DNA of 32,120 bases from Candidatus Doudnabacteria bacterium (GTDB lineage: Bacteria; Patescibacteriota; Doudnabacteria; UBA920), in the NCBI GenBank assembly GCA_903908535.1, contig CAIVSE010000046.1, forward strand, positions 1-32,120. The letters run 5' to 3'. Both the position numbers and the translations under genes were made by a program. The notes under the pieces were generated by a model, which was not told the DNA's origin, did no database searches, and saw only the letters and a list, made by a program, of their open reading frames with translations. Shown piece after piece: positions 2,595-22,150 of this stretch (position 1 is its first letter; the number at the start of each line of letters is the position of its first letter).

Positions 2595-2632
2595 AAACCG
2601 CCACTATAAATTTTAGTGACGGTTTTTTTTAT
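2595..2632 (+). terminator. Rho-independent terminator after the 1496-2581 gene
   Basis: A 12-bp stem with one mismatch (AAACCGCCACTA against TAGTGACGGTTT, seven-base loop) is followed by a run of T at 2623-2630. It ends plus-strand transcription and overlaps the stop codon of the convergent minus-strand gene. Confidence 0.85.
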
Positions 2633-3453
2633 TTTATTAATTTCTTTTTTTGTTTCTTTAAATGATTCTTCCCGCTCACAATACTTTTTCCTAAACGTTT
2701 TTCTAACTGTTTTCTGGCGCCGCCGGCAATGTCTCCGCCGGCTTGGGCGTCGCTCTTTAATTTTGGCAGGCCTTGGGAATCTTCCGTCCTATGGATTTCC
2801 GTAGTGGAACGTTCGCCCAGCATGGTAAAAATGAGTTCAAAGTCATCCATATGGTCGCGTAAATTTTGGCGCTTTAAACCTTTAAGTTTTTTGTATTCTT
2901 TGGGCGTGATGCCAAAAGTGGCTTTGGAAATTTCCGAAGTTAAAATTTCATAATCCGTTTGCTCGCGCGCTCCCCGCTTTTGCCACTCATCGGTTAATTC
3001 TTCGCGAATGGTAATGCCGCGCATTCTCTTTTCTATCCAGTCTTTCGGATAACCTTTTAGCTTATATAGCATCCTTGTTCTTTTGGTAGCCAGTTCCGGA
3101 TCCTCAATTTCCTGGACCCTTTCATAACCTACTTTTGCTAACCAGCGTTTAAAAGGCTCCGCCTTGGGCGAGGGAATTGATTGCACAATACGAAATAAGC
3201 CTTCTGTATTGGCACAATCAGTTTCGCGCATTTTTCCATCAGGAGCAACTAATTTGAACTGTCGACAAATTGTCGACGGTTCAAAGCCGTCCTCATCTTT
3301 TACCCTTACCTTCATTCTAAACCAGTAATCACGGGCATTTACGCTATCAGTTAAAGCTTCTATTACGTCCACAACTGAAAACCACCACTCGTTTTGGTAA
3401 ATAATCTTCCTTATTTGCTTACCTTTAAACAGGGCCATTTTTGTAGTATCCAT
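2629..3453 (-). CDS. BRO-N / DinD-like DNA-binding family protein
   Basis: This 274-residue protein opens with a BRO-N-type domain: FKGKQIRKIIYQNEWWFSVVD (about residues 9-29), then a variable middle and a FKRWLAKVGYERVQE segment near 105-125. The C-terminal half (TDYEILTSEI, FGITPKEYK, LTEIHRTEDSQGL-like and GGDIAGGARKQLE stretches) resembles the DNA-damage-inducible protein DinD family. BRO-N proteins are known from phages and mobile regions as antirepressor-like DNA-binding proteins; DinD of E. coli is SOS-induced. The role here is inferred only at family level. The tail is Lys-rich. ATG 3453 is used; ATG 3438 (MALFKGK) is an alternative. The IS and an ORF6N gene nearby suggest an accessory island. 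Confidence 0.8.
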   Translation of the reverse strand: MDTTKMALFKGKQIRKIIYQNEWWFSVVDVIEALTDSVNARDYWFRMKVRVKDEDGFEPSTICRQFKLVAPDGKMRETDCANTEGLFRIVQSIPSPKAEPFKRWLAKVGYERVQEIEDPELATKRTRMLYKLKGYPKDWIEKRMRGITIREELTDEWQKRGAREQTDYEILTSEISKATFGITPKEYKKLKGLKRQNLRDHMDDFELIFTMLGERSTTEIHRTEDSQGLPKLKSDAQAGGDIAGGARKQLEKRLGKSIVSGKNHLKKQKKKLIK

Positions 3454-3497: not shown

Positions 3498-3607
3498 TTA
3501 TCCACACCTGTGCATATAAATTCTCAATTCCCGCATTTCTTGGTAAAAATTTGTTATGTTTCTGTTAACTTTTTGTTATGAATTTGTTATCACGGTTTTT
3601 CTATAAT
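3498..3607 (+). promoter_or_regulatory. Phased-repeat promoter module, copy 1
   Basis: A TTATCCACA box (3498-3506), part of an imperfect palindrome with TGTGCATA, is followed by four hexamers at exact 11-bp intervals: TGTTAT 3552, TGTTAA 3563, TGTTAT 3574, TGTTAT 3585. A TATAAT -10 at 3602-3607 starts 17 bp after the start of the last repeat. No good -35 is present (the last TTGTTA is only 12 bp from the -10), as expected of an activator-dependent promoter. It points at the secreted peptidase gene. The same layout recurs at 14083-14192 and 18348-18458. Confidence 0.65.
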
Positions 3608-3704: not shown

Positions 3705-4889
3705 ATGAGCAAAAAAACTTTTAGTTTGATTATTGCCACGTTGCTTTTATTGACGCCGTTTTTCAGCAAAGCCCAAAGCGTAAGCAAGCACGGACGGGTT
3801 TGCAGCATAACAAAAACCGGCGGTTTGGCCAGCTGCCATATCCAAGTGTTATTGGATAGTAATAATATTCCGTTGGTTTCAGGTTCTCCCATGGGTTACG
3901 GGCCAACGCAATTGCGTGGCGCTTATGGCGTTTCCGGCCGCGCGGCAGGAACGCCTATTATTACCATTGTGGACGCCTACGATGACCCCACCATAAAGAA
4001 CGATTTAGACGCGTATAGTCTGCAGTTCCATTTGCCGGTGTTGCCGCTGTGTAAAATTGCGGCCGCAAAATCCACAGTCCCCTGCCTGCAAAAAATTAAC
4101 CAAACCGGGGGTAAAGCCGTACCGGCCGCCAACGGCGACTGGTCTATGGAAATAGCTTTAGACGTGGAAGCCAGCCACGCCATGTGCGAAAATTGCAGCC
4201 TGATTTTAGTGGAAGCCAAATCGCCCAATATGACTAATTTATTTACGGCCGTGGATACCGCGGCCAAAACCGGCGCAATTGCCGTTTCCAGTTCCTGGGG
4301 CGGACCGGAATACAAAGGCGAAACTAAATTAGATAAACACTTTAACCATTCCGGAAGTGCTTTTACCGTCAGTTCCGGCGACAGCGGCTATGGCGTGCAG
4401 TATCCGGCAGCTTCGCCTTTTGTGACGGCCGTGGGCGGCACGTCGCTGTATATGAACGGCAACAGTTATTCTAATGAAGATGCCTGGAGCGGCGCCGGCA
4501 GCGGTTGCAGCCGGTTTGAAGCTAAACCAGCCTGGCAAAAAGATGTTTTATGCAAGGGCCGCACTGTCGCCGATGTCTCCGCAGTGGCCGACCCGTCCAC
4601 GGGCGCGGCTATTTACAGCAGTACCAGCCCCAAAGGGCAAAAAGGCTGGTTTACGGCCGGCGGCACCAGTTTGGCCGCGCCAATTATTGCCGGCATTTAC
4701 GCTTTGGGAGGCCTAACTAAAAATCAAACTGCCAACAGCTTACCCTATTTATTTGGCAATAAAAATAATTTACATGACGTTGTAGGCGGCAGTAACGGAA
4801 TTTGCAACCCTTCCTATTTATGCACCGGCAAAACTAAATACGACGGACCAACGGGTTTAGGCTCGCCTAACGGATTGGGAGCATTTTAA
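3705..4889 (+). CDS. Secreted sedolisin-type (S53) serine-carboxyl peptidase
   Basis: This is a 394-residue exported peptidase. Residues 1-24 are a signal peptide (KK, hydrophobic core, then SKAQS). Sedolisin catalytic residues are recognisable: E149 and D153 in WSMEIALDVE, the oxyanion Asp D226 in SSGDSG, and Ser322 in GGTSLAAP. The C-terminal YDGPTGLGSPNG resembles the calcium-site segment of the family. Several Cys pairs (for example C161/C164, C268/C283) suggest disulfides. The usual ~180-residue activation prodomain is missing; only ~60 residues precede the catalytic domain. ATG 3705 is preferred to TTG 3684, because the TTG lies in a leader hairpin and the ATG directly begins a clean signal peptide. 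The stop is one base before the ORF6N start. Confidence 0.85.
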   Translation: MSKKTFSLIIATLLLLTPFFSKAQSVSKHGRVCSITKTGGLASCHIQVLLDSNNIPLVSGSPMGYGPTQLRGAYGVSGRAAGTPIITIVDAYDDPTIKNDLDAYSLQFHLPVLPLCKIAAAKSTVPCLQKINQTGGKAVPAANGDWSMEIALDVEASHAMCENCSLILVEAKSPNMTNLFTAVDTAAKTGAIAVSSSWGGPEYKGETKLDKHFNHSGSAFTVSSGDSGYGVQYPAASPFVTAVGGTSLYMNGNSYSNEDAWSGAGSGCSRFEAKPAWQKDVLCKGRTVADVSAVADPSTGAAIYSSTSPKGQKGWFTAGGTSLAAPIIAGIYALGGLTKNQTANSLPYLFGNKNNLHDVVGGSNGICNPSYLCTGKTKYDGPTGLGSPNGLGAF

Positions 4890-8389: not shown

Positions 8390-8830
8390 CTAGCGTGACA
8401 CGGAAATATTTTGGCCAAGCTCCGCGCCCGGAGCGTCAACCGTTATCCGACCGGCGTCATCCTGCGATACGGAATAAAGCGTGTCATAGGTAATAGTACT
8501 GTCGCCGCTACCGCCCTTAGGGTCGTATAAAACCGAAGACAAATAATTCGGCACCAGGCAGCGCATAATGTCCATATTACCGGCGCCGGATTTAATATCA
8601 GTCGGCGTGGTCGTGGGCTGGACCGGACAATTAAACAGGCCGCCGTTGTCGGACATATTTTCGCCAACGGCGTTTAAAATGGCGTTGACGTTACTCAACC
8701 GTTGGGTGTTGCGGCTGGCGGCAAATTGCCGCGCCGGGTTAATGGCGACAATAACTATGGTGGCCAAAACTGCTATCATGCCAATGACCACCAAAATTTC
8801 AATCAGGGTAAAGGCTTTAAGTTTTTGCAT
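8390..8830 (-). CDS. Type IV pilin / GspG-like major pseudopilin
   Basis: This is a 146-residue prepilin. It has a short basic leader MQKLKA, a predicted prepilin-peptidase cut before F7, Glu at mature position 5 (FTLIE) and a 25-residue hydrophobic helix, followed by a globular part. C68-type and C91-type cysteines (FNCPV, MRCLV) may form a disulfide. It is the last gene of the pilus operon but is set apart by a large hairpin and has its own promoter-like element, as expected of a subunit needed in excess. No prepilin peptidase is seen in the window. Confidence 0.88.
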   Translation of the reverse strand: MQKLKAFTLIEILVVIGMIAVLATIVIVAINPARQFAASRNTQRLSNVNAILNAVGENMSDNGGLFNCPVQPTTTPTDIKSGAGNMDIMRCLVPNYLSSVLYDPKGGSGDSTITYDTLYSVSQDDAGRITVDAPGAELGQNISVSR

Positions 8831-8847
8831 ATTTTTTTAAGTTAATT

Positions 8848-8875
8848 ATTTTAGCTAAGGAGCTGTTAAAACCAA
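8848..8875 (-). promoter_or_regulatory. Candidate promoter of the major-pilin-like gene
   Basis: On the minus strand TTGGTT (8870-8875) and TAAAAT (8848-8853) are 16 bp apart, 18 bases before the start codon. It would allow independent transcription of the pilin. Confidence 0.5.
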
Positions 8876-8882
8876 TATTTAA

Positions 8883-9014
8883 TAGGGTTTACGCATCCAG
8901 CCAAGTACGAGGCATTTTGTGAGGATTTTCGGAGGCGTACTGTGTAGTACGCCGGAGAAAACCGGAACAAAATAACGAAGTAATTGGCTGAAAGTCAGCG
9001 GTGCGTAAACCCTA
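8883..9014 (-). repeat. 132-base intergenic hairpin in the pilus operon
   Basis: Perfect 13-bp outer arms, TAGGGTTTACGCA (8883-8895) and TGCGTAAACCCTA (9002-9014), enclose further paired blocks: CAGCCAA/TTGGCTG (8898-8904 with 8984-8990), ATTTTGT/ACAAAAT (8914-8920 with 8967-8973) and GGCGTAC/GTACGCC (8934-8940 with 8947-8953) around the loop TGTGTA. The right arm includes the stop codon of the preceding pilX-like gene. It could protect or cleave the polycistronic message between the minor and major pilins. Confidence 0.7.
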
Positions 9015-9413
9015 AGATGAATCCAGGTCCTCCCAGGAAATTAACGTCAGGTCCGCGGCGTTAACCACCATTTGTAAATTGGCGGCCGCGCCGTTAATGT
9101 CCGCCCGGCTTTTAATGGTAATTTGCCCGGCCGCCGGAGAGTTTAAATTGATGCCGATAATTTGGCAGCTGCCTGTACCTACCGGCAGTTCACCTATTTG
9201 CGGGGCCTGCGGATTTTGGATAATACGCAGACGCGCCGCCTGCAGGCAGGACCAGGCCAGGAAAAAACTTTGCCGGCGGTTATACATGTCAGTCCCGTTG
9301 GCGCCAAGATAAAAACCGCCGGCCGCCGTGGCGCAGACCACGGCGAACAGCACGGCTGAAATAATCAGGGCCGATATTAACAAAATATATCCGGCTGTCT
9401 CGCGTTTAGGCAT
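9012..9413 (-). CDS. PilX-like minor pilin
   Basis: This is a 133-residue protein with an N-terminal MPKRETAGYILLISALIISAV-type start: short basic leader, then one hydrophobic helix (residues ~8-32). It lacks the Phe-Thr-Leu-x-Glu prepilin motif, as many PilX/GspK-like proteins do. The rest is predicted to be globular and rich in Ala, Gly and Asn, ending ISWEDLDSS. One base separates it from the upstream gspJ-like gene. The assignment rests on position and N-terminus, not on a clear family motif. Confidence 0.7.
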   Translation of the reverse strand: MPKRETAGYILLISALIISAVLFAVVCATAAGGFYLGANGTDMYNRRQSFFLAWSCLQAARLRIIQNPQAPQIGELPVGTGSCQIIGINLNSPAAGQITIKSRADINGAAANLQMVVNAADLTLISWEDLDSS

Positions 9414-9414
9414 T

Positions 9415-9900
9415 TTAATATTGCTGTAAATATTCAGTAAAACTAAAATCCTGGCGGGCTAAACGGCCGCGGCTATCCAAAGTTTCCAGTACATAACTTA
9501 TGTCCAGGCCTTCGGGCCGCCCGGATGTGGCGGGGACGTCCCGGAACAAAAGACTATCAACTATAACGGCCTCGGCATTTAAATCTGCCGGGATGTTGCC
9601 GTCCGCGGCCAGGCGCGCGCGCCCGATTTGGGAAGTAAAAATTACCGGCCAGGCTGAATCATAAGTATTAACGGTTAATGTTTGGCCGCCGTCGCTAACG
9701 GTAAAATTTTTAGCCCCTAAAAATGCCCAGTCAAATTTACCGATTAAAAACTGGCCTTCCTCCTGCAATAAAATTTTAGCCTGCTCCGCGCTGGCCGAAA
9801 CAATTAAAGAATAAGCGCAGCTTAAAATTCCACCCAAAAAAATCGCGGCCAGGGCCAGATAAACCAGGGCTTCTAGCAAAGTAAAAGCGCGTTTTTGCAT
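9415..9900 (-). CDS. GspJ/PilW-like minor pseudopilin
   Basis: This is a 161-residue prepilin. MQKRA is the leader, cleavage is predicted before F6, and E10 is mature Glu5 (FTLLE). A hydrophobic helix runs to residue ~30. The globular part includes LLQEEGQFLIGKFDWA and the GLDISYVLETLDSRG segment common to J/W-type minor pilins. An in-frame upstream extension to 10059 exists but overlaps the previous gene and is rejected. The start is one base after the stop of the propeller-pilin gene. Confidence 0.82.
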   Translation of the reverse strand: MQKRAFTLLEALVYLALAAIFLGGILSCAYSLIVSASAEQAKILLQEEGQFLIGKFDWAFLGAKNFTVSDGGQTLTVNTYDSAWPVIFTSQIGRARLAADGNIPADLNAEAVIVDSLLFRDVPATSGRPEGLDISYVLETLDSRGRLARQDFSFTEYLQQY

Positions 9901-9901
9901 A

Positions 9902-11308
9902 TTATTTCGGCGCGAATAAAGACAAAAGTCCCGAACTGGCAGACGCGCCTGCCGCGTAAACGGTGTTGCCGCTGCAGGCCAAGGCGGTACCGGCGGCGCC
10001 GGACGCCAGGGGCTGCGGCGGCAATAATTCCGGCATACTGGGCAGGCCGGAAACGTCAAAAAACCGCAACTGGCTGTTGGTCAGCATCAACAACACCGAG
10101 TTCACAGCCATTAAGCTGTTAACGCTGCTGCTGATTTTTAACGAAGAAAGCGGCGTGGGCGTGGGCGGACCAATATTAGAAACGTCAAACACCGCGAATT
10201 CAGGATTAGCCGTATTAGTCACAGTCCGGCCAAAATATAAATTATTGCCCTGCAAAAACAGGCTTTTGCCGTTACCCTGATTATCCAAAGCGTGAAAGCC
10301 ACTGGCTCTTACAATACTGGCCGGATTAGAGACATCCAAAACCGTCAGCTGTTCCTGCGGCGAATTGCCGCCGCTCATGGGGTGCGCCACATAAGCGTAA
10401 GATCCTTTAACAACTATGGCGTTAACCGTGCTGCCAAAACTAAAACCGCCGGCCCATTTTGGGTTCAAAGCATCGCGGACGTCAATAACATTAAACTCCG
10501 GGCCGCCACCGGTTTTGGTCAGGCCCAAATAAACAAATCCGTCGCTGTAAAAAATGCTGTTGCCTATACCCTCACCGCTGGTCCCGGTAACTCCCGGGAT
10601 TTTATACGTCGCCGCCAGCCGCGGGTTTTGCGGCTGGCTGACATTAATAATTTGCAATTGGCCAAAACCGGAAGACAAAGAAACAGCCCGTGCGCTGGCC
10701 GCGTAAGCATATTGGCCGACAACCGCGAGAGCGTTAAGGCCGGCCGTAGTTGTGGTGGCGTTGTCCAAACTTCCTTCCAATACAGGGTTGGTGGAACTGG
10801 CCACGCTGAACACTAAAAAAGTCGGCTGGGTTTTAGCGGCAGTAACGGACAGCCCCACAAACAACTGTTGGCCCCGGGCCTGCATAGCGGCCACCGGGCC
10901 AAAACCAAAATCTATATTGGCAATTACAGACTGAACCAGGCCGGACTGATTGATTTGGCAGCCGTTTTCCGCCAAAGCATCCTGCCAGTCCACCCACAGG
11001 CTGTTTAAAATGATTGTGGCCCTGGGCCGGCCGGTGGTTTGCCAACTCGCCAAACCGGTAACCTGCCGCGTGTAACCGTCCTCATCAATAAAATTTAATG
11101 CCGGCCGCGGTCCCAAAAAAACCGTGTTGGCCCCGCCGGACTCCACTAACCCACGCGCGTTTTGCAAAGCTTCCCCGCCCAGCTGCGAACTTTCAATAAG
11201 GGCCTGACTGCCCAAAACCACCAGCAGGGCGCAGGAAAACCCAATGGCAATTACGGCCAAAGCCATCAATGCCTCCAGAGTGGAAAAAGCTTTTTGGTTG
11301 TAATTCAT
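9902..11308 (-). CDS. Prepilin fused to an LVIVD-type beta-propeller
   Basis: This is a 468-residue prepilin. The N-terminus is canonical: cleavage predicted before F8, E12 as mature Glu5 in FSTLEAL, and a helix to ~residue 35 (GspI/PilV-like). After a ~100-residue pilin-like part, the region from ~130 to 468 consists of ~45-residue repeats of the form LxVxDVSNPxxPxxxG with YAYVA or VYLGL strands, which is the LVIVD pattern of surface beta-propellers. As a minor pilin it could sit at the pilus tip and act as an adhesin. It lies between gspH-like and gspJ-like genes, where the I subunit is expected. Confidence 0.82.
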   Translation of the reverse strand: MNYNQKAFSTLEALMALAVIAIGFSCALLVVLGSQALIESSQLGGEALQNARGLVESGGANTVFLGPRPALNFIDEDGYTRQVTGLASWQTTGRPRATIILNSLWVDWQDALAENGCQINQSGLVQSVIANIDFGFGPVAAMQARGQQLFVGLSVTAAKTQPTFLVFSVASSTNPVLEGSLDNATTTTAGLNALAVVGQYAYAASARAVSLSSGFGQLQIINVSQPQNPRLAATYKIPGVTGTSGEGIGNSIFYSDGFVYLGLTKTGGGPEFNVIDVRDALNPKWAGGFSFGSTVNAIVVKGSYAYVAHPMSGGNSPQEQLTVLDVSNPASIVRASGFHALDNQGNGKSLFLQGNNLYFGRTVTNTANPEFAVFDVSNIGPPTPTPLSSLKISSSVNSLMAVNSVLLMLTNSQLRFFDVSGLPSMPELLPPQPLASGAAGTALACSGNTVYAAGASASSGLLSLFAPK

Positions 11309-11314
11309 ATAATT

Positions 11315-11749
11315 TTATGGGGAATTAATTTGTCCAACTTGGTTAATACTAATGGTCAAAGTCCGGCCAAAACCGCTGATATTAATATTACCGGCATTTT
11401 TGGCGCTGCCGCTCAACTGCAAAAAAATAAATTCATTGGCGCCGGAAACTGTTATTCCCGGACTGGCCGGGAAATCAACATCCGTACGCACGTCGCTGGT
11501 GATCCAGTCCGCTCCGGCAAATAAAACATACTGCCCATCCCCAAAATACACGCCGTGCGGCGACTGTCCAATATTGTCCATGGCCTGGCCGCGGGCGCGA
11601 CGGAGTAAATTGGCCACAAACCCGGCCTCGCCGCGCAAAACCGAATTACGATAGGCCCCTATATTTGCGGCTAAACCAAAACCGCCCACGGCCGTCAAAA
11701 GGGCTATAACCAAACAAACCTCAATTAAAGTAAAGGCCCGCCTTTTCAT
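11315..11749 (-). CDS. GspH/FimT-like minor pseudopilin
   Basis: This is a 144-residue prepilin. MKRRA leader, cleavage before F6, E10 as mature Glu5 (FTLIE), hydrophobic helix to ~residue 30, then the H-type segment GEAGFVANLLRRARGQAMDN and a beta-rich C-terminus with SGFGRTLTISINQVGQI. The start overlaps the gspF-like stop by four bases, which suggests translational coupling. Confidence 0.85.
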   Translation of the reverse strand: MKRRAFTLIEVCLVIALLTAVGGFGLAANIGAYRNSVLRGEAGFVANLLRRARGQAMDNIGQSPHGVYFGDGQYVLFAGADWITSDVRTDVDFPASPGITVSGANEFIFLQLSGSAKNAGNINISGFGRTLTISINQVGQINSP

Positions 11750-12783
11750 GGTTTGATGTTCTGGGTTATTTGGTAAATTGGGGTAATAATGGAAATAGCC
11801 ACAAAGCCTACCACCGCGCCCATGCCCACCATCAGCACCGGTTCAATCAGGCTGGACAGGTTTTTGGCGGCATCCTCCACTTCCTGTTCATAAATTTCCG
11901 CCAGGTACAAAAAGCTGCCGCTTAAATTGCCGGACATTTCCCCCACGGAAGCCATCTGCGGCACCAGGGGCGGAAACACCGACGCGCGCTCGGCGAGATG
12001 CCGGGAAATTTTTTCGCCTCGCGCCAGGCGCTGGGCCAATATGTGCAGTTCGCGGCGATAAACCAGGCTGGATGAGGTTATTGCCGCGATGCGAGTGGCA
12101 TCCACAATATGGACATTACTGCGCAGCAGCAAACCCAGGGTCCGGCAGGTATTGGCCAAAAAATAACTTTGCAGCATTTTGCCCAAAAAAGGTAATTTGA
12201 TAAGCAGGCGATCAACAGCCAGCTTTACAGCCGGCAGGCGCAACAGCAAAACCGCCGCTGCCGCCAAACCCAGCAGCCCCAAACCCGCCAGCCAAAACTT
12301 ATGAGTGGCGAAATTGGTCATGGCCATTAAAATTCTGGTCGGTAGCGGCAGGGCAAACCGGAACGACGCGAAAATGGGCAAAATTTTTGGGAAAACATAC
12401 AGGCTCAACAAAGCGGTAATCCCCAAAGTCGCGGCCACAATAAACCCGGGATATATTAACGCGCCGCTGACTTTGCCTTGCAGCTGCCTCTGTTTTTTAA
12501 GCTCTTCGGCCAGGTACTGCAAATTATCAGCCAGGCCGCCGCCCATTTCCCCGACTTTAATGATATTCACGGCAAACAACCCGAACATTTTTTTTTGTTT
12601 GGCTACGGCGGCCGAAAGCGGCAGGCCGTTTTCCACGTCCACAATCAGGCGATTGACCACGGCCTTGCCGCCCTGTTTGGCGGTTTGGTCGCGCAGCATG
12701 GCAAGCGCCTGGGCAATGGGAATTTCAGCCTTAAGCAAAATAGCCAGGCGCTTGGCAAATAAAATTTGTTCTTCCAGTTTCAT
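11746..12783 (-). CDS. PilC/GspF-type inner-membrane platform protein
   Basis: This 345-residue protein is the membrane platform on which the ATPase acts. Two T2SSF domains are seen, one starting LEEQILFAKRLAILLKAEIP and the other YFLANTCRTLGLLLRS (about residue 200). Three hydrophobic segments lie near 110-132, 160-180 and 315-340. VGEMGGGLADNL and VGEMSGNLSGSF are the matching VGExSGxL signatures of the two halves. The protein lacks the ~60-residue N-terminal extension of longer PilC proteins. It starts two bases after the ATPase stop. Confidence 0.92.
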   Translation of the reverse strand: MKLEEQILFAKRLAILLKAEIPIAQALAMLRDQTAKQGGKAVVNRLIVDVENGLPLSAAVAKQKKMFGLFAVNIIKVGEMGGGLADNLQYLAEELKKQRQLQGKVSGALIYPGFIVAATLGITALLSLYVFPKILPIFASFRFALPLPTRILMAMTNFATHKFWLAGLGLLGLAAAAVLLLRLPAVKLAVDRLLIKLPFLGKMLQSYFLANTCRTLGLLLRSNVHIVDATRIAAITSSSLVYRRELHILAQRLARGEKISRHLAERASVFPPLVPQMASVGEMSGNLSGSFLYLAEIYEQEVEDAAKNLSSLIEPVLMVGMGAVVGFVAISIITPIYQITQNIKP

Positions 12784-12785
12784 GG

Positions 12786-14006
12786 CTATTCGTGTAAAAT
12801 TTTTAGGATTTCCCGCAAGCTGGTCAGCCCGGCCCGCGCCTTGTTAAAACCATCTTCAATCAGCGGCACCATGCCAGCCGCCACAGCCAGCTGCCTTATC
12901 TTTGAAGCCGGCGCTTTGGCCAAAACCGCTTCGCGGATATTTTGGTCCGGCACTAATATCTCGTGTATGCCTATGCGGCCGCAGTAGCCGCTAAAGCCGC
13001 AGCCGGCGCAACCGTTGCCCGTAAAAAAATTTTGCGCACCCAGGGCGGAGGCATCCCGGCGGGACAAGAATTCCAGCAGGCCGCGGGTCTCGGCCGGGGA
13101 AATGGGTTTGGCTGTTTTACAGACGGGACAGAGTTTGCGCACCAGGCGCTGCCCAATGGCGACGTTGACCGTGGAAGCAATCAGGTAGCCTTCAATTTTT
13201 AAATCCAGCAGCCGGGGCAGGGTGGTGGCCGCGTCCGAAGTGTGCAGGGTGGACAGCAGCAGGTGCCCGGTTAAAGCCGTATTCACGGCCAAGCCGGCGG
13301 TTTCGCTGTCGCGGATTTCGCCCAGCATAATAATATTAGGATCCTGCCGCAGCACCGCTCGCAGGCCTGTGGAAAAGGTCAGGGTCGTGCGCGGATTCAC
13401 CTGAATTTGGTTGATGCCTTCTATGGCATACTCAATAGGGTCTTCAATGGTAATCACCGAGATTTGTCTGGTATTAAAAAACTTAACCAGCGTATACAGC
13501 GTGGTGGTTTTGCCGCTGCCGGTGGGTCCCGTGGCCAGAATCATTCCATAAGGCTTGTGCAGGGCGCGGTTGATGACCCGAATATTTTCCGGACTGAACC
13601 CCAAACCCTCCAGGGTAAAGTCCTGGGCCTGGCCGGAGAGCAGGCGCAGCACCGCGTTCTCCCCATAATAGGTCGGGACAATGGATACGCGAACATCCAG
13701 CGGCCCATGGAGAGTGGCCAGACGGAAGCGGCCGTCCTGCGCGGCCTGGTGCTCGTCGGTGCGCATGCCGGCCATAATTTTGATGCGGCTGATTATCTCG
13801 CCGTGAATCCCTGCAGGGCACTTGTGCGCGTCGCGCAACAGGCCATCCACGCGGTAGCGCACCACCAACTTGTCCGCGGCCGGGTCTATATGTATATCCG
13901 AAGCCCTGGCCGCAAAAGCATCCTCCACTATATATTGCACCACATTAATAATGGACAGTTTGGGCCCCAAAGCCAGTTCGCTATTAATCTTCTCCGCGCT
14001 GTTCAT
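12786..14006 (-). CDS. PilB/GspE-type assembly ATPase, short form
   Basis: This 406-residue ATPase would power pilus extension or pseudopilus assembly. Walker A GPTGSGKT (160-167), Walker B LGEIRD (228-233), Asp-box SDIHID (36-41) and the His-box TGHLLLSTLHTS (246-257) are intact. A zinc site is formed by C293/C296 and C333/C336, which is typical of PilB/GspE and not of the retraction ATPase PilT. The ~150-residue N-terminal MshEN/T2SSE_N domain is absent; the protein starts almost directly at the N2 domain. It is the first gene of the operon, so the phased-repeat module at 14083-14192 would drive the set. Confidence 0.92.
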   Translation of the reverse strand: MNSAEKINSELALGPKLSIINVVQYIVEDAFAARASDIHIDPAADKLVVRYRVDGLLRDAHKCPAGIHGEIISRIKIMAGMRTDEHQAAQDGRFRLATLHGPLDVRVSIVPTYYGENAVLRLLSGQAQDFTLEGLGFSPENIRVINRALHKPYGMILATGPTGSGKTTTLYTLVKFFNTRQISVITIEDPIEYAIEGINQIQVNPRTTLTFSTGLRAVLRQDPNIIMLGEIRDSETAGLAVNTALTGHLLLSTLHTSDAATTLPRLLDLKIEGYLIASTVNVAIGQRLVRKLCPVCKTAKPISPAETRGLLEFLSRRDASALGAQNFFTGNGCAGCGFSGYCGRIGIHEILVPDQNIREAVLAKAPASKIRQLAVAAGMVPLIEDGFNKARAGLTSLREILKILHE

Positions 14007-14082: not shown

Positions 14083-14192
14083 AGCATAACAAAATAGGGA
14101 TAACAAAATCATAAACAAAAGATAAACGCGGGATAACAAATTTTCACGCAAATTAGCCGGAATTTTAAAAAAATATCCACATATGTGGATAA
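14083..14192 (-). promoter_or_regulatory. Phased-repeat promoter module, copy 2
   Basis: On the minus strand TTATCCACA (14192-14184) belongs to the perfect palindrome TATCCACATATGTGGATA (14174-14191). It is followed 54 bp downstream by TGTTAT (14138), then GTTTAT units (14127, 14116) and TGTTAT (14105), all 11 bp apart. TATGCT, a -10-like hexamer, follows at 14088-14083, 17 bp after the start of the last repeat, as in copy 1. A fifth TGTTAT overlaps the -10. It points at the pilus operon. Confidence 0.65.
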
Positions 14193-18347: not shown

Positions 18348-18458
18348 TTATCCACAGCTGTCAAGGGCTTAGGCCCTAAAACACGCATTTTTGGATAAAA
18401 GTTGTTATCTTCCTGTTATCTTTTTGTTATAACTTTGTTATCTGGGTTATGTAAAAAT
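18348..18458 (+). promoter_or_regulatory. Phased-repeat promoter module, copy 3
   Basis: TTATCCACA (18348-18356) is followed 55 bp downstream by four TGTTAT units at 18403, 18414, 18425 and 18436, exactly 11 bp apart. The downstream -10 is weaker here (TATGTAAAAAT region, 18449-18458). The module points away from uvrA and into the protein-free region, where a folded RNA candidate starts at about 18465. Confidence 0.6.
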
Positions 18459-18540
18459 TAAATTGGGCCTGGCCAAAAGAGGTAAGATCGCTCTAGCAAG
18501 CACATCTTGTAGGTTCACTCCTACCAGGCCCGCCATCTGC

Positions 18541-18568
18541 TTGACAAGTTTTGGGCGGATGATAAAAT
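18541..18568 (+). promoter_or_regulatory. Internal promoter candidate in the protein-free region
   Basis: TTGACA (18541-18546) and TAAAAT (18563-18568) are 16 bp apart. A transcript would start near 18575 and end at the terminator at 18611-18640, giving an RNA of only about 65 nt, or it would be a second start of the same RNA gene. Confidence 0.5.
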
Positions 18569-18610
18569 AAAATTGCTAGGGCTATCAATACCTCTCTTGG
18601 TAAGATAAAC

Positions 18611-18640
18611 AAACCCCCGTTTACACGGGGGTTTTGGTTT
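18611..18640 (+). terminator. Rho-independent terminator of the first RNA unit
   Basis: AAACCCCCGT and ACGGGGGTTT form a perfect 10-bp stem with loop TTAC, followed by TTTTGGTTT. Confidence 0.85.
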
Positions 18641-18641
18641 A

Positions 18642-18669
18642 TTGACTAATAAATAAAATTGTTTATAAT
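18642..18669 (+). promoter_or_regulatory. Promoter of the second RNA unit
   Basis: TTGACT (18642-18647) and TATAAT (18664-18669) are 16 bp apart. Transcription would start near 18676. It begins directly after the preceding terminator. Confidence 0.75.
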
Positions 18670-18675
18670 AGAAAT

Positions 18676-18787
18676 ATATTGTTGCCCGCGACACTAAGAG
18701 ATTTTGATGTCGGGCAACTGGTGGACAGACCCGGTTAAACCCCGAGCCCTCAAAACCCCTGCCTAAAGCGGGGGTTTTGGTTTTATT
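18676..18787 (+). ncRNA. Candidate ~100-nt small RNA or peptide-coding leader
   Basis: A promoter, a stable hairpin and a terminator fit within about 150 bases. GTTGCCCG...ACA pairs with TGTCGGGCAAC (18681-18717; two bases bulged). A 19-codon ORF starts at ATG 18707 and ends with TAA at 18764-18766 inside the terminator; it would encode MSGNWWTDPVKPRALKTPA, with AAGAG seven bases or more upstream as a weak ribosome-binding site. Tandem Trp codons before a terminator recall attenuator leaders, but no amino-acid gene follows on this strand. It could equally be a regulatory RNA. Confidence 0.5.
18752..18784 (+). terminator. Rho-independent terminator of the second RNA unit
   Basis: AAAACCCCTGC pairs with GCGGGGGTTTT (one G-U pair) around CTAAA, followed by GGTTTT. 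The tail GGGGTTTTGGTTT is nearly the same as in the terminator at 18611-18640. Confidence 0.85.
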
Positions 18788-18908
18788 TCAAAATTAAAAC
18801 CGTAGCCAAGCATAAAGCCGGTCACGGTCAAAATTTAGGCCGCGCCTTTGTCAAAAAGAATAACTCGTCCTATAGCCATAGTTGGACGTGTCGGTCGCGA
18901 CAGTGATG

Positions 18909-20559: not shown

Positions 20560-21990
20560 TCAACTGCCTGCCGCGTTTTCCGCCAAATACCTTACAATTT
20601 GGTAGAGAAAAAATACGCCGGCTATCATCGCCGCAAAAAACCACGGCGGCACCTGCATGGGCAAATGCCCATAAGGTAAATTACCAAAAAAATGGATAGT
20701 TTTTAAAATATAGAGCAGTAAAAAATTACAAATGTAAGCCAACCCAGGGCCAACAAACGGCGCGGCGCTTAAAAAACCCAGCAGCATAGTTATGGGCACC
20801 GTCGGCAAGACCAAAATATTCACTATCGGCGAAATTAAACTTAAAACGCCAAAGTTGTAAACCAAAAACGGTAAGGTTGCTGTAATGGCGGCCATAGTTA
20901 CCAGTAATATGCTTTTTGTACCCAACCACTCGCCCCAGCTCGCAGTCAACTTTTCCAGCGGCGGCAAAAAATAAACAATGCCCAAAGTGGCGGCAAAAGA
21001 CAGCTGGAAGCCAACATCAACGGTTAGTATTAATGGATTAAAAATCAGCATTATCAGCCCGGCAAAAAATAACGACGCCGTAATATGGTACTGCCGGCCC
21101 AAGGTGCGGCCGGTTAAAAACAAACTGCCCATAATGGCCGCGCGCACCACGGAAGACGAAGCCCCGGTGACAATGACAAAACTAAAAATTACAGCCAAAG
21201 TCACCCAAAAAGCTTTTCTCCGGCCCAGCAAATGCACCAAAAAAGCCAAACCGGCAATTAAAATGGTAATATTGTAGCCGGAAATGGCAATAATGTGCGA
21301 AGTACCGGTGTTGCTAAAGTCAGTTATAATATCCGGCGGCAAGGTTTTTTTGGCGCCAATTAAAATTCCCAAAAGTAAACTGTTTTGCGGCTCATTAAAT
21401 AATAGAGCCAGGCGGTCAGTAAAAGCGTGCTTAATCCTGTAAAGTTGATAATAAATTTTATTTTGCTTATTGCCGCTGATAATTAAAGTTTTAGGATAAG
21501 TAATAAGGCCGTAAATGTTAAATCGCTGTAAATAAGCCTGGTAGTCAAACGAAGGGTCAGACTGGGCCTGGGTAATTTTACCGTAAACTAAAACCTCATC
21601 GCCGTAAAAATATTCCTGGCTTAGCGGCTCGGAAAGCAATAATTGCTGATGGGACCCATCCGGCTGAAAAGTCAGGTACTGTTTATCTGTACGGATGTCC
21701 GGATCTTGAACTATGTAGCCATGAAATTCCTGTTTGGAATTCATTAAATTAGAGTACTCGTTTGGAACACGTATAGCATTTAACCGTAGCGCGCCCAATC
21801 CGGCTACAATCAGCAAAATAGCCAAAAGCATAACCGTTCGGTTTCCAACCATATATCCAAACCCAAACTGTAAAACAAAAAACCCTCCCGCTAAATACAA
21901 AAAGTTGTCGGGAATGTTAAACTTTGAAGCAATTAGTATGCCGGCGGCAAAGCTAACCGCAGCTTCAATCAAAAACTTGCTTTTAGGCAT
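20560..21990 (-). CDS. ComEC/Rec2 DNA-uptake channel, competence domain only
   Basis: This 476-residue protein has an N-terminal pair of helices, an external DUF4131-type beta domain (about residues 85-165, EFHGYIVQDPDI) and a Competence domain with about eight to ten helices (TGTSHIIAISGYNITIL, SSSVVRAAIMG and PIVNILVLPTVP are family signatures). Full-length ComEC (~750 residues) carries a C-terminal metallo-beta-lactamase domain that is absent here, and the gene ends cleanly without a downstream remnant. ATG 21990 is preferred; ATG 22011 would place the start inside the arm of a long inverted repeat. With the pilus genes it suggests natural DNA uptake. Confidence 0.88.
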   Translation of the reverse strand: MPKSKFLIEAAVSFAAGILIASKFNIPDNFLYLAGGFFVLQFGFGYMVGNRTVMLLAILLIVAGLGALRLNAIRVPNEYSNLMNSKQEFHGYIVQDPDIRTDKQYLTFQPDGSHQQLLLSEPLSQEYFYGDEVLVYGKITQAQSDPSFDYQAYLQRFNIYGLITYPKTLIISGNKQNKIYYQLYRIKHAFTDRLALLFNEPQNSLLLGILIGAKKTLPPDIITDFSNTGTSHIIAISGYNITILIAGLAFLVHLLGRRKAFWVTLAVIFSFVIVTGASSSVVRAAIMGSLFLTGRTLGRQYHITASLFFAGLIMLIFNPLILTVDVGFQLSFAATLGIVYFLPPLEKLTASWGEWLGTKSILLVTMAAITATLPFLVYNFGVLSLISPIVNILVLPTVPITMLLGFLSAAPFVGPGLAYICNFLLLYILKTIHFFGNLPYGHLPMQVPPWFFAAMIAGVFFLYQIVRYLAENAAGS

Positions 21991-21999
21991 AAGATAGTC

Positions 22000-22150
22000 C
22001 GGACAGGCCATTAATTTTTTGGCTCCGGAACTCGCTTGGAAATTTGCTACTTATTACTCAAAGGTTGCCATTTAAGAAATGGCAACCATAGTTCATATAG
22101 AAAAATTCGTCGCTCAAACAGTCCTCGCTGCAAAAATTAAGGCCTGTCCG
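22000..22150. repeat. Large intergenic inverted repeat upstream of comEC
   Basis: CGGACAGGCC-A-TTAATTTTT (22000-22019) pairs with AAAAATTAA-GGCCTGTCCG (22132-22150) with one bulged A. Inside is a perfect 11-bp hairpin, GGTTGCCATTT/AAATGGCAACC (22063-22087). It fills the gap between the DUF167 gene and comEC, and if transcribed it would form a long double-stranded leader before comEC. Confidence 0.7.

Follow-up and report, generated by a model that had tools for sequence, protein, structure and literature searches.

The window (the whole stretch of DNA analyzed, 32,120 nt of contig CAIVSE010000046.1 from the Candidatus Doudnabacteria bacterium assembly GCA_903908535.1) contains three copies of a promoter in which TGTTAW-type hexamers at 11-bp intervals lie between an upstream box, TTATCCACA, and a -10 element. 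Array 1 precedes an exported subtilase gene and array 2 a type IV pilus operon. No gene follows array 3; a tRNA-like cloverleaf (RNA1) is found there instead, adjoined by a second RNA unit (RNA2). The features are, in order of position:

3498–3506 (+), TTATCCACA, DnaA-box-like, 54 bp upstream of array 1
3552–3590 (+), array 1, four TGTTAW at 11-bp intervals
3602–3607 (+), -10 of array 1, TATAAT, 17 bp after the start of the last repeat
3708–4889 (+), target 1, exported subtilase (Peptidase_S8)
8390–14006 (−), target 2, pilB-pilC-pseudopilin operon (type IV pilus)
11746–12783 (−), pilC, within target 2
12786–14006 (−), pilB, within target 2
14083–14088 (−), -10 of array 2, TATGCT
14100–14138 (−), array 2, two of four repeats degenerate
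14184–14192 (−), TTATCCACA upstream of array 2
18348–18356 (+), TTATCCACA, 55 bp upstream of array 3
18403–18441 (+), array 3, four perfect TGTTAT repeats
18453–18458 (+), -10 of array 3, weak, AAAAAT, at the conserved position
18465–18535 (+), RNA1, predicted 71-nt tRNA-like cloverleaf with 3′ GCCA and an oversized anticodon arm
18541–18568 (+), predicted RNA2 promoter, TTGACA (18541–18546), 16 bp, TAAAAT (18563–18568)
18573–18604 (+), RNA2 segment complementary to RNA1 positions 5–35 (D arm to anticodon loop)
18611–18636 (+), RNA2 terminator hairpin, then a T-rich stretch

The subtilase region is adjoined by an integrase-like transposase ORF (130–1374) and a Bro-N protein (2629–3453).

A phased-array promoter and its targets

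A sequence-only reading of the window had reported the three copies, and arrays were recovered at those places, starting at 3552 (+), 14138 (−) and 18403 (+). The second stood as to position, although its middle two repeats are degenerate (GTTTAT), and the -10 of the third occupies the conserved position but is a poor hexamer. Allowing up to three mismatches, we counted 8 overlapping matches to the array in the window, where dinucleotide shuffles gave an expectation of 0.02. The genome, 88% complete at 1.04 Mb in 93 contigs, was covered by pattern and profile searches and yielded the further copies that the reading had anticipated: the array pattern matched 12 times (8 + 4), against 0 for the reversed-pattern control, and 11 full copies of (TGTTAW-N5)x4 were found, plus weaker ones. 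The profile search added a copy on contig C5 and a contig-end copy on C67, and C65 possibly carries another, weaker one (two repeats and TATAAT). In a gap-free alignment of the 11 full copies, 72 columns long, TGTTAW recurs every 11 bp (consensus TTTGTTATCTTTCTGTTAACTTTTTGTTATCTTTTTGTTATCTG) and a -10 TAnnnT starts 17 bp after the start of the last repeat, its T, A and last T being near-invariant. The repeated promoter was confirmed. Direct repeats at a phase of about 11 bp beside a -10 are the layout of OmpR/PhoB-type promoters, and the promoter, taken by itself, adds a new member to that known kind; in the B. subtilis PhoP box (TTAACA-N5 x4) and the E. coli pho box, as here, tandem 11-bp direct repeats abut the -10 and there is no -35. 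Unlike the known OmpR/PhoB boxes, those described here have as targets a pilus, ComF, exported enzymes and putative tRNA mimics.

The upstream box, present at 54–55 bp in all three window copies as first described, was not universal. It was matched at 9/9 positions 54–55 bp upstream in 4 of the 11 genome copies, and TTATCAACA lies at 53 bp in a fifth; shuffles gave a mean of 0.004 sites with a match of at least 8/9 to TTATCCACA at 54–56 bp. As an obligatory promoter part it was rejected (5/11 copies), and it marks a subset of the promoter copies. One upstream box lies inside a response-regulator gene, so the spacing of box and array is kept even there.

The secreted peptidase, the pilus operon and the non-coding RNA, grouped by the sequence-only reading, are all targets, and the genes downstream of the copies, once listed, comprised pilus, comF, exported enzymes, a kinase and RNAs. 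Beyond the window, boxes also serve a pilin gene; a histidine kinase; comF, with an ABC transporter after it; exported proteins with a sunset domain and with DUF5666; a DUF3276 gene, behind which stands one judged by eye to be msrA-like; a Y1 transposase; and, at C84, a broken gene. Small RNAs among the targets number four in the genome as a whole, the one of the window included. There are two IS200-like Y1 transposase genes (L014 10307–10894, −; L013 1916–2593, +), one first and the other second after a box.

Competence genes with a box are pil, pilin and comF in this genome, and comF and ssb in genus g32 (below); an array box was looked for at comEC (window 20560–22011, −) and none was found. 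Known competence regulons include those of ComX, ComK and Sxy/CRP-S. As in these, the DNA-uptake pilus, comF and (in g32) ssb appear co-regulated here; unlike in these, the regulator and the kind of site are others, and comEC is without a box. A competence-like regulon under an OmpR-type regulator is probable. The open-access literature found did not treat the control of DNA uptake in such reduced-genome bacteria, which to judge by gene content and genome size are probably Patescibacteria; for these the analysis supplies a defined box, a list of targets and a putative regulator.

Arrays in relatives and the candidate regulator

The exact motif was absent from the family genomes and private to the source species among the genomes searched; elsewhere it gave only 15 isolated single matches, in unrelated GTDB genomes, and exact-motif conservation was rejected. 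Copies in relatives, on which the earlier proposal had been made to depend, were thus lacking for the exact motif and present for the design, as drifted 11-bp arrays in other families. In genus g32 (family f5), three genomes carry arrays with TTAAY as the unit, and their -10 follows the last TTAA by 15 bp, which matches the register in the source genome. A pattern search returned 8, 17 and 9 matches in the three genomes (reversed control, 0), and these arrays lie upstream of comF and rpsF-ssb, of genes for ABC binding proteins and a secreted LCAT-like lipase, and of several RNA1s. Genomes of family f52 carry TTAGA, TTAAC, TTAAG and TTAAT arrays before RNA1. Upstream of RNA1s, period 11 scored 18.21 versus 15.7–16.5 for periods 7–10 and 12–14, and 22 of 42 RNA1 modules had upstream 11-bp phasing at p ≤ 0.05. 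Judged by these sequences, the 11-bp array is tied to RNA1 beyond the source species. No evident array was seen at several RNA1s (G018, G016, G009, G024, G096, G196), which have ordinary promoters. KYAAA-type arrays precede family RR genes (G009, G015); other KYAAA-type sites in G015 had no clear genes downstream. In both L181 and L182 an rpoD-like gene is preceded by a conserved TTAAATCG-TTTAATCC-TTTTTAA array, which has a near-identical counterpart on contig C16 of G047.

One box of the source genome lies in the 122-bp gap that separates the start of a histidine kinase gene from the stop of the OmpR-type response-regulator gene on C79 (L017 2143–2808, −; domains Response_reg and Trans_reg_C), a placement that makes the C79 regulator the natural candidate. 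Receiver and winged-helix domains are shared with OmpR/PhoB regulators. Only two OmpR-type regulators were found by the genome search, on C79 and C21. Outside its own genome the best match of the C79 regulator is in G048, a g32 genome (51% identity); G046 has a 48% match followed by a 7TM kinase, and G047 a match of only 38%. Orphan relatives of the regulator occur in family f1 (L040–L043), with 11-bp units TCAAA/GTAAA upstream of three. The proposal of one regulon under an OmpR/PhoB-type regulator is well supported by the box at the kinase locus, the genome search that found only two such regulators, and the targets.

The C79 response regulator is, most likely, the protein predicted to bind the array. 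That another protein does so (for example the C21 OmpR-type regulator or an unrelated activator) is unlikely: a second OmpR-type regulator, 38% identical, is indeed present, but it is the C79 regulator locus that carries a box, and the C79 ortholog is the sole OmpR-type regulator found in G048, a genome with drifted arrays. The phosphate type suggested by the sequence-only reading was not upheld, the targets being pilus, ComF, exported enzymes and RNAs instead. Of the NCBIfam models seen for named regulators, none had its cut-off reached by the C79 regulator. A phosphate (PhoP/PhoB) regulon, to which the PhoP-box-like TTAACA-N5 repeats of the complement and a sub-cut-off NCBIfam PhoB score (172.7, far below 296.2) would point, is the least credible alternative considered here, since phosphate-acquisition genes were sought among the targets of this genome and of g32 and none was found.

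The RNA1 and RNA2 modules

The non-coding RNA was confirmed as a target, and beyond what had been described it appears to mimic a tRNA and to have an antisense partner. The window RNA1 has G3-C70 and G73, without the G3.U70 and A73 typical of its relatives, and a T loop of 6 nt. The RNA1-RNA2 module also follows boxes on C5 and C67; on C84 an RNA1 module, without a convincing RNA2, follows the box before comF. A decayed tRNA-like module on C29 (L071 2761–2836), which the gene for canonical tmRNA neighbors at a distance of about 2.8 kb, contains box-like TGTTATGATTTTGTTAT and is followed by a TTGACA promoter. ARAGORN called no RNA1 as a tRNA, and the RNAs depart from tRNA genes, which have a 7-nt anticodon loop on a 5-bp stem. 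Rfam 15 at gathering threshold gave no match in the whole window or in the C5, C67 and C84 modules; against tmRNA (RF00023) the C5 RNA1, only 71 nt long, scored 26.1 bits, below the gathering value of 47.

A first covariance model, built from three modules without C67, found the held-out C67 (44 bits) and, in relatives, six modules. For R2, N was used to pad the loops. A second model, from ten RNA1s, gave matches in 12 of 49 order genomes (E ≤ 1e-8), one of them (L143) a true tRNA. Of 380 genomes sampled from the phylum, 21 had matches (E ≤ 2e-9). Two R3 matches were set aside, L153 and L143, the latter a true tRNA-Ala. In total, 46 distinct RNA1s were collected from more than 20 genomes across the phylum. 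In an alignment fitted to the structure, on which the pairing and covariation counts rest, 96.2% of cells were paired (n = 46) versus 67.6% when shuffled and 45–58.3% when slid, and the covariation score was 0.749 versus 0.191 shuffled, with two-sided changes in all four helices. Pair 3:70 is G.U in 44 of 46 and A73 is present in 45 of 46, while pairs 4–7 are free to vary. CCA is encoded in most RNA1s. The anticodon hairpin usually has 8–9 bp and a bulge, and its loop, which differs in sequence between copies, is mostly N-U-NNN-CA (by eye) and U-turn-like. G3.U70 and A73 form the alanine identity set, and RNA1 is therefore predicted to be alanylated.

In 39 of 45 modules a flanking segment was complementary to RNA1 beyond all shuffles, 30 in tandem and 9 convergent, and most of the nine opposite-strand RNA2s have promoter-like sequence pointing back. 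Among 30 order modules, complementarity of cognate RNA1 and RNA2 averaged 41.4 versus 21.9 (SD 4.9) for foreign pairs, and this specific complementarity between adjacent RNAs is that of an antisense pair. Duplex energies from ViennaRNA (cognate −47.6; foreign −36.2, SD 6.6) separated the two less clearly because they include terminators and T arms. A second RNA2 block against the D arm is common among the modules, so RNA2 would be expected to unfold RNA1. The pairing is kept despite the change of orientation, which argues for RNA-RNA action and against simple attenuation. RNA1 and RNA2 are almost certainly real paired RNAs, and the predicted pair is an undescribed structured RNA class; the open-access literature held no counterpart of the pair or of the regulon.

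Proposed mechanism and alternatives

The phased array is a predicted site of an OmpR/PhoB-family regulator, most likely that of C79. Two head-to-tail dimers of this regulator would sit on one DNA face, beside a -10 that has no -35, and it would switch on pilin and comF, the pilB-pilC-pseudopilin genes, exported enzymes, its own kinase and RNA1. With the alanine identity set and CCA in most copies but an overlong anticodon hairpin, RNA1 would be alanylated yet unable to decode normally. RNA2, made from the constitutive-looking adjacent promoter, would pair with the anticodon loop and the 5′ strands of the anticodon and D arms of RNA1 and unfold it. Without induction RNA1 would be silenced by RNA2; on induction of the regulon RNA1 would exceed RNA2, and the alanylated mimics set free might interfere with or modulate translation during DNA uptake. 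Most likely, RNA1 would be an alanine-accepting tRNA mimic that is induced with DNA uptake and neutralized by RNA2. The arrays, target genes, RNA1 structure and covariation, cognate complementarity and distribution were seen in sequence; from them we infer the regulator's identity, transcription, alanylation and, least firmly, the physiological effect. The whole, an OmpR/PhoB-regulated DNA-uptake regulon with RNA1 mimics neutralized by RNA2, is the best explanation, held with moderate confidence.

RNA1 could instead be a regulatory RNA (its loop antisense to mRNAs, or a sponge), with RNA2 as anti-sponge and the tRNA fold providing just stability and a CCA end. The variation of the loop between copies and its U-turn-like N-U-NNN-CA form, suited to RNA pairing, are consistent with this, but the conservation of G3.U70 and A73 would be left unexplained, and we give the idea a small share of the probability.

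That RNA1 and RNA2 together form a two-piece tmRNA-like rescue system, with the tag frame supplied by RNA2, is very improbable. RNA1 does resemble the tRNA-like domain of tmRNA and tRNA-Ala (G3.U70, A73, CCA, T arm, short D arm), and the weak Rfam tmRNA match (C5, 26 bits) agrees with this. Unlike tmRNA, however, it is a closed single 71-nt cloverleaf with an 8–9 bp anticodon hairpin and no tag frame. A canonical tmRNA coexists in the source genome, and one scores over the cut-off in 18 of 22 family members; a shared RNA2 reading frame was not seen (by eye), the pairing would break the D and anticodon arms, and RNA2 is sometimes convergent. Marginally less probable still is the view of the RNA1s as decaying tRNA-Ala pseudogenes with incidental RNA2s, the promoter regulon alone being functional. 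Their acceptor and T arms resemble tRNA-Ala, C29 carries a decayed copy, and the window copy lacks G3.U70 and has the 6-nt T loop; against this stand the strong covariation in all four helices, the near-invariance of G3.U70 and A73 while other acceptor pairs vary, the cognate RNA2s in 39 of 45 modules in two orientations, and the recurrence of regulated promoters.

The reading of RNA1 as an antisense-controlled tRNA mimic shares with type I toxin-antitoxin and antisense control the adjacent RNA, long cognate complementarity, U-turn-type loop pairing and orthogonal copies, and differs from type I systems in that the controlled RNA would be a putative tRNA mimic rather than a toxin mRNA. A tentative extension, which we regard as possible but doubtful, is that the modules are phylum-wide two-RNA devices in which an alanylated mimic effector and its antisense antidote, OmpR-switched with DNA uptake, might act as an all-RNA toxin-antidote or growth-pause device. 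Rfam 15 is without such a class, in which putative tRNA mimics retain the alanine identity pair and are each accompanied by a cognate antisense RNA, and the system allows a direct test of charged tRNA mimics as antisense-controlled bacterial effectors. Just after RNA2 in the window, positions 18642–18795 hold promoter-like TTGACT-16-TATAAT, a strongly folding unannotated RNA (z −3.2) and a terminator.
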